This document shows, piece after piece, positions 14,990 to 30,941 of a stretch of DNA of 64,000 bases (positions are counted from its first letter, which is position 1; every line of letters begins with the position of its first letter). The position numbers and the translations under genes are program-made. The stretch is from the NCBI RefSeq assembly GCF_014203695.1, contig NZ_JACHJO010000002.1, forward strand, positions 273,893-337,892, written 5' to 3'. Source of the DNA: Nocardiopsis algeriensis (GTDB lineage Bacteria; Actinomycetota; Actinomycetes; Streptosporangiales; Streptosporangiaceae). Below the pieces are notes generated by a model, which was not told the DNA's origin, searched no databases, and saw nothing but the letters and a program-made list of their open reading frames with translations.

Positions 14990-15457
14990 TTTCCCCAAGG
15001 GGCGCAGTGAGCGAAGCGGAAGCCCAAAGAGGTACAGGGGCGCCGAGGGGGTTCCGCAGGAGCGAGCAACGAGGAATCGCTCCTTGAGGGGCGTCCGAGA
15101 CGGGATGTCGCGACCGGAGGACCCAAAAGGCACAGCCGCGCCCCAGGGGGTGTGCCGTGAGGGCGCCGGCGGGGTTCTGCAGGAGTGGAGCGAACGCCCG
15201 AGGAACGAGGGCGTGAGCGCAGCGACGAAGAACCGCGCCCTGAAGGCGCCCGAGCAGGGGCCAAAGCGAAGCGGAGGCCCCGAAGGGGCAGGGGAGGGCG
15301 CCGGCGGGGTTCTGCAGGAGCGGAGCGAACATCCGAGGAACGAGGATGTGAGCGCAGCGACGAAGAACCGCGCCTTGAAGGCGCCCGAGCAGGGGCCGAA
15401 GCGAAGCGGAGGCCCCAAGCAAACACGGTGGAGGCCCCAAAGCAAACACAGCGCGGC
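14990..15457 (+). repeat. Repeat block A: two full 123-bp structured units plus a degenerate copy
   Basis: Units at 15159-15281 and 15294-15416 are near-identical and repeat with a 135-bp period; 15001-15110 is a diverged relative. Each unit begins GAGGGCGCCGG and ends AAGCGAAGCGGAGGCCCC, and contains three stem-loops: a variable-stem hairpin with constant loop GAGGAACGA (15194-15214 and 15329-15349), a GCGCC/GGCGC hairpin, and GGGGCC/GGCCCC closing the end. The block fills the space from the amidohydrolase start to the stop codon of the DUF5753 gene. The 59 bp at 15137-15195 recur exactly at 30549-30607 in block B. Open frames exist through it but I do not call them genes. Confidence 0.9.
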
Positions 15458-21851: not shown

Positions 21852-21947
21852 GACCCCATCCTCCCATCCGGTGCCCCGTCGCACGTCCCGGAGAAGGAGC
21901 CTCGGAGACCGTCCTCCGCGGGCGGGGACGGACGGCGGGTGGGGATG

Positions 21948-22095
21948 GCCGGCCGTTGAGGGTGGTGGGGGGAGACGGGCAGGCAGGACCGCGGCCGGAG
22001 GCCGGCCGTTGAGGGTGGTGGGGGGAGACGGGCGGGCAGAACCGCGGCCGGAGGCCGGCCGTTGAGGGTGGTGGGGGGAGACGGGCGGGCAAGAG
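21948..22095 (+). repeat. Tandem repeat C: three copies of a 53-bp unit
   Basis: The core GGCCGTTGAGGGTGGTGG recurs at 53-bp spacing (GTTGAG at 21955, 22008 and 22061) followed each time by GGGAGACGGGC. A related single copy lies in block B near 30810-30861. The array is in the divergent tetR-hisN interval. There are no spacers, so it is not a CRISPR. Confidence 0.9.
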
Positions 22096-22143
22096 TCCGG
22101 TCAATCATGTGTGCCGCCTTGGCCATGCCCCCGCCCGGACCGG

Positions 22144-26301: not shown

Positions 26302-26378
26302 TGGTAGCGGGGACAGGATTTGAACCTGCGACCTCTGGGTTATGAGCCCAGCGAGCTACCGAACTGCTCCACCCCGCG
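26302..26378 (-). tRNA. Initiator tRNA-fMet (CAT), copy 1
   Basis: 77 nt including the encoded CCA. The cloverleaf has anticodon CAT, and two initiator hallmarks are visible: an unpaired C1 opposite U72 at the acceptor end, and three successive G:C pairs (GGG/CCC) at the base of the anticodon loop. TTGCCA and TAGACT on the minus strand, 16 nt apart (26412-26417 and 26390-26395), form its own promoter. Confidence 0.95.
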
Positions 26379-26498: not shown

Positions 26499-26575
26499 TG
26501 GTAGCGGGGACAGGATTTGAACCTGCGACCTCTGGGTTATGAGCCCAGCGAGCTACCGAACTGCTCCACCCCGCG
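26499..26575 (-). tRNA. Initiator tRNA-fMet (CAT), copy 2
   Basis: 77 nt, identical in sequence to the copy at 26302-26378 and lying 197 bp away. Same CAT anticodon, C1:U72 mismatch and GGG/CCC anticodon stem. A good promoter (TTGGGC, 17 nt, TACTGT) lies at 26589-26617 on the minus strand. Confidence 0.95.
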
Positions 26576-30440: not shown

Positions 30441-30941
30441 CCCGCGAGGGCACCCGAACAAGGGAGCTGCGACCGAAAGCCGCCCGCCGAAGGCGGCGGC
30501 GGGCGACGTGCGGGCCGAAGCGAAGCGCCGGTCACCCTCAAGTCCACCCGCGCCCCAGGGGGTGTGCCGTGAGGGCGCCGGCGGGGTTCTGCAGGAGTGG
30601 AGCGAACACGCGAGGAACGAGCGTGTGAGCGCAGCGACGAAGAACCGCGCCTTGAGGGCGCCCGAACCGGGGCCGAAGCGAAGCGGAGGCCCCAAAGCAA
30701 ACACAGCGAGGGCGCCGGCGGGGTTCTGCAGGAGCGGAGCGAACATCCGAGGAACGAGGATGTGAGCGCAGCGACGAAGAACCGCGCCTTGAGGGCGCCC
30801 GAACAAGGGGGCTGCGGCCGTAGGCCGTCCGTTGAGGGTGGTGGCGGGCGACGGGTGGGCCAAAGCGAAGCGGAGGCCCCAAAGCAAGCACAGGAGCGCA
30901 GCGACGAAGAACCGCGCCCAAAGGCGCCCGAGCAAACACCA
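30441..30941 (+). repeat. Repeat block B: composite array of the 123-bp unit with a nested ~50-bp module
   Basis: Full unit at 30571-30693; second unit 30708-30880 whose last hairpin is split by a ~50-bp module (30810-30861) related to tandem repeat C; a diverged module copy at 30448-30527; and a truncated unit at 30893-30938. The variable-stem hairpins are at 30606-30626 (ACACGC/GCGTGT) and 30743-30763 (ACATCC/GGATGT), both with loop GAGGAACGA. The block fills the whole interval between two converging stop codons. Same orientation as block A. Confidence 0.9.

Follow-up and report, generated by a model that had tools for sequence, protein, structure and literature searches.

The 64,000-nt stretch of Nocardiopsis algeriensis DNA analysed here (the window) contains two intergenic blocks, A and B, each made of two full core copies in the same direction together with fragments. 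Block A lies between an amidohydrolase gene and an HTH/DUF5753 gene, both on the minus strand. Block B occupies the 501-nt gap between a gene that we take to be PPA1309-like, which has no Pfam match, and a PDZ/Lon_C protease gene. The features of both blocks are given below, with bit scores from the covariance model R1 described later in the text.

14990..15457, plus strand: block A, an intergenic mosaic of hairpin modules
15033..15101, plus strand: shortened or rearranged core (R1 30.1 bits, E 1.4e-4)
15133..15155, plus strand: 5' leader module (..CGCGCCCCAGGGGGTGTGCC), common to many blocks
15156..15256, plus strand: full core A1, stem ACGCCC/GGGCGT (R1 112.8 bits; predicted fold)
15194-15214: stem-loop copy within A1, ACGCCC-GAGGAACGA-GGGCGT
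15257..15281, plus strand: tail hairpin GGGGCC-AAAGCGAAGCGGA-GGCCCC, 3' of core A1
15291..15391, plus strand: full core A2, stem ACATCC/GGATGT (R1 111.7 bits; predicted fold)
15329-15349 and 30743-30763: stem-loop copies ACATCC/GGATGT, within A2 and B2
15392..15416, plus strand: tail hairpin GGGGCC-GAAGCGAAGCGGA-GGCCCC, 3' of core A2, then AAGCAAACAC
30441..30941, plus strand: block B, a 501-nt convergent intergenic region filled by the mosaic
30568..30668, plus strand: full core B1, stem ACACGC/GCGTGT (R1 113.7 bits; predicted fold)
30606-30626: stem-loop copy within B1, ACACGC/GCGTGT
30669..30693, plus strand: tail hairpin 3' of core B1, then AAAGCAAACACAG
30705..30805, plus strand: full core B2, stem ACATCC/GGATGT (R1 113.3 bits)
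30807..30856, plus strand: module D (..GGCTGCGGCCGTAGGCCGTCCGTTGAGGGTGGTGGCGGGCGACGGG..), between core B2 and the next tail hairpin (limits set by eye)
30857..30880, plus strand: tail hairpin 3' of module D
30888..30930, plus strand: right-arm core fragment (GAGCGCAGCGACGAAGAACC...), read in the sequence (R1 14.6 bits, E 0.39 for 30831-30934)

Re-reading of the sequence bears out the coordinates and letters that the initial annotation gave for the four stem-loop copies, and confirms that three of the six stem pairs differ on both sides among them. The 123-nt unit proposed there was too short: an alignment of the four copies extends over 153 nt, with identities of 71-93% to the reference copy, and their spacing within the blocks is 135 and 137 nt. 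By eye, a whole element measures ~150-190 nt and consists of a ~100-nt core, a leader module and a tail hairpin. Outside the two blocks, a relative of module D is present as three tandem 53-bp copies (GGCCGTTGAGGGTGGTGG...) at 21947-22105. At its curated scores, Rfam reports only two tRNAs in the window; two near-identical tRNA genes lie on the minus strand, 197 bp apart, at 26305-26378 and 26502-26575. With E values of up to 5, the sole Rfam match in block A is whalefall-1 at 15074-15122 (13.6 bits, cut-off 37), which overlaps the shortened core and neither of the full copies.

The repeat is dispersed through the host assembly (4.81 Mb, 26 contigs), which holds at least 62 matches to the 153-nt query, many of them fragments (40 of 95 candidates scored). 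Both arms of the inner stem are readable in 37 copies from 23 blocks, and one further copy is cut by a contig end. The arms pair in 34 of the 37, as ACATCC/GGATGT (21 copies), ACGCCC/GGGCGT (7) or ACACGC/GCGTGT (6). Three copies are unpaired: ACGCCC/GCGTGT, ACATCC/GCGTGT and ACACCC/GGATGT, two of which join arms of different alleles and one of which carries a single changed base. Association between left and right arm across the 37 copies reaches V 0.90 (0 of 2000 shuffles as high), that of each arm with the two variable loop bases between them V 0.41 (p 0.04), and outside the stem two site pairs stand at V 0.71 (p 0.04 and p 0.14). Because this genome has only three stem alleles, the four window copies alone are weak evidence for a preserved stem, and the arm association in this genome is modest evidence. 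By eye, the blocks resemble mosaics of leader, core, tail hairpin, module D (~50 nt) and truncated pieces, apparently joined at short common motifs, and a gene's TGA stop contributes the first bases of two blocks. A divergent second subfamily occurs elsewhere in the genome (locus L086). Contigs C8, C10, C13 and C16 end in a repeat match or within 20 nt of one, so that the assembly seems to have been broken by the repeat.

Folded singly, two window copies have z-scores of -5.4 and -5.2 (200 shuffles). Eight sense-strand copies range from -4.1 to -9.9, with none of 200 shuffles as stable for seven of them and one of 200 for L173. The predicted fold agrees in outline across copies from four genera and runs from an outer helix, P1, through helix P2, with a 5-6-nt bulge on its 3' side, and a purine zone to a variable helix, P3, and a nine-base tip. 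The tip frame GAG-loop-CGA, with GNA or CNTG as the loop, is present in 109 of 115 Nocardiopsis R1 hits; the tips read GAGGAACGA (67 hits), GAGCTTGCGA (32), GAGCCTGCGA (6), GAGCGTGCGA (2), GAGGTACGA (1) and GAGGCACGA (1), with 6 hits carrying none of these, and the counts are favoured by the presence of the tip in R1 itself. Judged by its letters, the purine zone GAGGAG/CGACGA could form a repeating unit made of two G.A pairs plus one G-C pair; the tip GAG-GAA-CGA can be read as one such unit, closed by a three-base loop. The 5' arm has GAGGAG in 49, and the 3' arm CGACGA in 47, of 95 distinct copies, so the zone varies. Since the opposite strand would turn the G.A motifs into C.T, we assume that it is the plus strand whose fold is preserved. 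The minus strand folds too, at higher energy in all three cases compared and with a z-score that is no worse for L181. In a comparison meant to tell an RNA from a DNA strand, isolated mismatches in symmetric arm pairs (43 of 81 distinct) are G.T in 14 cases and A.C in 7; over the first six pairs the ratio is 14:2, a weak, post hoc figure that comes mostly from one closing pair.

Preservation of the stems was assessed in an alignment and without one. The MAFFT alignment A1 comprises 30 sequences chosen by hand among 47 listed; the outer helix is seemingly misplaced in it between subfamilies, so only P2, P3 and the tip-closing pair were counted. Over these 17 pairs, 86.9% of 510 cells are paired, versus 37-54% when the arms are slid, and 40 cells have changed on both sides, versus 13.3 in shuffles. 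The percentage paired, the number of both-side-changed cells and the covariation score each lie above all 500 shuffles. Two further measures on the 30 sequences do not stand out: the count of pairs with change on both sides is 8 versus 5.7, a value reached by 23 of 500 shuffles, and that of further pair types is reached by 82 of 500. RNAalifold predicts 15 pairs on A1, four of them with change on both sides. The alignment-free test drew on copies whose tip is exact (124 of 178; 54 changed-tip copies excluded), which gave 77 distinct arm pairs and, at 75% identity, 24 clusters with one representative each. Native hairpins average -13.6 kcal/mol and swapped arms -6.8 kcal/mol; none of 10,000 permutations reached the native mean, in a statistic that ignores relatedness among clusters. 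In 15.8% of swaps, a left arm folds with its new partner no less stably than with its native one, and native pairing is poor (above -7 kcal/mol) in three of the 24 clusters. The proposal in the initial annotation that a stem-loop is kept, by selection or by a copying mechanism, is thus strongly supported by covariation, arm association and fold. Mismatches are not as common as compensatory changes, and covariation, far from fading as copies are added, is stronger across species. What is maintained, by selection or by the mode of copying, appears to be the shape of the element itself.

R1 was built from 30 hand-picked sequences, 21 of them from the window's own subfamily. It finds matches in 32 of 40 Nocardiopsis genomes (E<=1e-3), at 1 to 90 per genome with 101 candidates scored in each, and none in the other 8 at the same threshold; copies in N. 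algeriensis score up to 117 bits, those in the 39 other genus genomes at most 86. At the level of the family, 52 of 298 genomes match (E<=1e-4), 31 of them Nocardiopsis and 21 from eight other genera, so that the model reaches nine of the 68 genera sampled. The architecture is recognisable in all 26 copies inspected from four of those eight genera (24 hits plus L289 and L328). In one copy from another genus, L290, the tail runs up to the point where the downstream gene is called to start (..CCCATGAGCACGG), 58 nt past the core. Across the class, 8 of 296 genomes match, and only G728 belongs to another family; the one of its two copies that was read folds alike. A sequence-pattern scan of genome contigs returned 40 stretches, of which 10 are real, all in Nocardiopsis, and 30 have no matching arms by eye. 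A pattern search of the phylum hit 16 of 396 genomes, all but N. algeriensis with a single copy judged unrelated by eye, and is a weak test since the pattern misses the window's main subfamily. One N. algeriensis core had no plasmid or phage match by blastn, and five viral pattern hits have no paired arms by eye.

Placement of the repeat was examined against gene calls made with a custom codon-composition script rather than a standard gene finder. No N. algeriensis block lies inside a called gene, and three start within the last 16 nt of one. Both neighbours are known for 22 of the 25 blocks, which occupy 14 convergent, 8 co-directional and 0 divergent gaps; among the 90 gaps of 150 nt or more that lack an element in the same stretches, 7 are convergent, 44 co-directional and 39 divergent. 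In relatives, element-bearing gaps of at least 150 nt are 41 convergent, 23 co-directional and 0 divergent (n=64), and element-free ones 0, 39 and 25 (n=64), where the zero for convergent gaps is biased because the loci were picked for bearing an element; 114 of 115 copies there do not overlap a called ORF. Of 24 copies in other genera, 6 lie in convergent and 3 in divergent gaps, and 2 overlap a called ORF. Orientation between co-directional genes shows no clear bias: 6 blocks sense and 2 antisense in N. algeriensis, 15 and 23 counted per element in relatives, and 7 and 8 in other genera. The occurrence of both orientations in such gaps does not favour a strand-specific 3'-UTR RNA. Where opposed copies share a gap, the order is minus then plus, with 5' ends inward, in 22 of 22 gaps (loci L227-L284), and the array middles inspected hold further inverted repeats, for example GGCCTACCTC..GAGGTAGGCC. 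In N. algeriensis, 30 strict-core matches run forward and 7 in reverse; for the 25 blocks, the split is 19 to 6. A replication-strand bias was considered and set aside, as orientations are mixed by eye along the one-contig chromosome of G200 among the matches listed; GC skew around the N. algeriensis blocks is of mixed sign.

Element presence at the block B gap changes between close relatives, by insertion or loss. The orthologous gap could be compared in 30 of 40 genus genomes and measures 2 to 501 nt. Elements are visible by eye in G000, G208, G218, G216, G202, G201, G228 (two, opposed), G215 and G206. G165, G209, G212 and perhaps other genomes show degraded or incomplete pieces, also judged by eye. 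Run on nine of these loci, R1 reaches E<=0.001 in four (G206, G228, G216 and G201); the remainder were recognised by reading. Many genomes have no element there, in gaps of 2 to 268 nt. In one pair whose protease genes are 95.3% identical, G221 has a 26-nt gap and no element and G216 a 190-nt gap with an element; the G221 gap is not an exact pre-insertion site. G218 carries module D in place of the tip. Three genomes, G202, G208 and G165 (loci L210, L201 and L215), have different inner stems in this same gap beside a neighbour gene that is 95-97% identical. Pairing is kept in all three; the G165 copy no longer has the tip frame and adopts another fold outside the inner stem.

No mobilising enzyme or excision footprint was found in our searches, and no target-site duplication was visible by eye at the one orthologous gap compared. 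The ends of the core can be complementary (GTTCGGGCGCC..GGCGCCCGAAC), but further conserved modules come next. Matches to RVT_1 (12 genomes examined) are absent from N. algeriensis, G220, G151, G212 and G218 and number two each in the carriers G200, G208 and G223; spread by reverse transcriptase is disfavoured because the N. algeriensis genome has no such match. Among open-licence papers, a search on Nocardiopsis repeats and hairpins returned no description of the family, and one on bacterial stem-loop repeats returned general work and nothing on it; a search with the tip letters listed matches that looked unrelated. The accessible part of a survey of stem-loop families (PMC2267715) includes mycobacteria and one corynebacterium and does not contain the words 'Streptomyces', 'Nocardia' or 'Actinobacteria', and the last of these does not occur in the accessible text of a REP/RAYT account (PMC2817692).

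We propose that these sequences are, on balance, probably a new family of structured, non-autonomous interspersed repeats in which one strand is required to fold as a fixed long hairpin. Near-identical scattered copies, a conserved fold and absence from divergent gaps make a non-autonomous mobile element the simplest account. Such an element would spread between gene ends, with its folded strand, as RNA or single-stranded DNA, recognised by an enzyme or protein acting in trans. Copies that lose the fold would stop spreading, and stems would in this way remain paired through drift or replacement of their sequence. Insertions into promoter regions would be purged, which would leave elements in convergent and other 3' gaps, and recombination at short common motifs between copies would generate mosaics and an occasional unpaired chimera. 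Against the mobile reading, the 5'-inward order in 22 of 22 gaps is unexplained by independent insertion, and copies in other genera are not clearly biased towards convergent gaps, with 3 of 24 in divergent ones. A bolder version, which we advance tentatively, is that such non-autonomous elements, or 'shape parasites', form a class in actinomycetes that extends over several genera and two or more taxonomic families and is most conserved in the tip frame and in a purine zone capable of repeated tandem G.A pairing. Each would travel as a folded strand, RNA or single-stranded DNA, moved by an enzyme other than a Y1 transposase or reverse transcriptase, and whole stems would be replaced between close species with the fold kept.

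Other explanations account for parts of these data. A host element acting in cis at gene ends, as a terminator, 3'-end stabiliser or insulator that spread by recombination and was kept for its function, strikes us as doubtful, even with the Nocardiopsis copies placed at gene ends, often convergent ones. It is favoured by the antisense gene found 3' of 18 of the 24 N. algeriensis blocks that have a 3' neighbour, with its end 8-32 nt away in 17 of the 18, and by the opposed copies, which point their 3' ends outward to the flanking genes in 22 of 22 gaps. From the letters, a terminator role is possible: the two blocks contain or border on three and five terminator-like sites, versus 1.0 and 1.2 in shuffles; all eight are minus-strand sites, and they fit arrays that turn that strand to both flanking genes. 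However, their tails, such as GGTTCTTCGT, are T-poor and make weak T-runs, and co-directional gaps show no clear preference in orientation. The element is also missing from many genomes at one orthologous gap (2 to 268 nt), and other genera lack a clear convergent bias. R1 finds no match in 8 of the 40 genus genomes, and this, together with the lack of a clear orientation bias, speaks against a necessary role. The fold might instead be under no selection, with template switching or gene conversion in imperfect palindromes copying one arm onto the other. Two of 37 copies do join arms of different alleles, different inner stems occupy the same gap in G202, G208 and G165, and the mosaics seem by eye to be joined at short common motifs. 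We consider this mutational account unlikely, since it does not readily explain the constant non-Watson-Crick motifs (GAG..CGA and GAGGAG/CGACGA). Nor does it easily account for how GNA and CNTG loops replace one another within a frame that stays, or for the spread of copies to new sites.

The initial annotation had also listed a REP/MITE-like repeat among its candidates, and this fits the behaviour best, given a near-identical species-specific set, intergenic placement and a site found both filled and empty; what it lacks in N. algeriensis is a Y1 match. An ordinary REP/BIME mobilised by a RAYT (Y1) transposase would share the ecology of our repeats, being extragenic, clustered and present in many copies with the palindrome preserved (PMC2817692, accessible part), and Y1 matches do occur in 13 of 40 genus genomes, including the carriers G212 and G218 (35 and 33 element matches). 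We nevertheless regard it as very improbable. Y1_Tnp has no match in N. algeriensis, in G200, G220, G151 and G208, the other genus genomes richest in element matches, or in G223; the next two by number of element matches do have one. G207 and G214, which have no R1 match, carry 5 and 4 Y1 and 10 and 22 RVT_1 matches.

The family we favour as a non-autonomous interspersed repeat behaves like REP, ERIC or BOX, and in N. algeriensis is not a RAYT-type REP. ERIC is a ~127-nt imperfect palindrome that lies between genes and whose mobiliser is not known; it resembles the present repeat as an intergenic imperfect palindrome and differs in sequence and in coming from another phylum, and we know of no modular tail hairpin or whole-stem replacement in it. 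BOX of pneumococcus is intergenic and hairpin-forming, with leader, core and tail and variable internal modules; it too is a modular intergenic hairpin, of unrelated sequence, and to our knowledge has no constant tip frame of the GAG-loop-CGA kind. The Correia/NEMIS elements of Neisseria are small structured intergenic repeats near genes, MITEs with terminal inverted repeats and TA insertion, whereas no clear boundary or target duplication was seen in the present family. With REP/BIME it has in common extragenic palindromes with complementary change, many copies, arrays and species-specific sets, as described in the accessible part of PMC2817692, which also gives REP elements a 5' GT(A/G)G head. 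In contrast to the short REP, its core is ~100 nt and several rich carriers have no Y1 match, and in contrast to REP/BIME it has a constant purine zone and tip, a fold shared across genera and opposed copies that are 5'-inward in 22 of 22 gaps.

At a practical level, the repeat seems to break assemblies, as at the four N. algeriensis contigs. If the family is mobile, an enzyme that reads folded DNA or RNA awaits discovery. More broadly, this is a repeat family that can be traced across genera by structure rather than by sequence, and nature supplies replicates of it: tens of copies in each genome, across tens of genomes, and one gap that is filled or empty across species. Such replicates let one ask whether hairpin repeats are kept by selection, by mobility or by replication errors.
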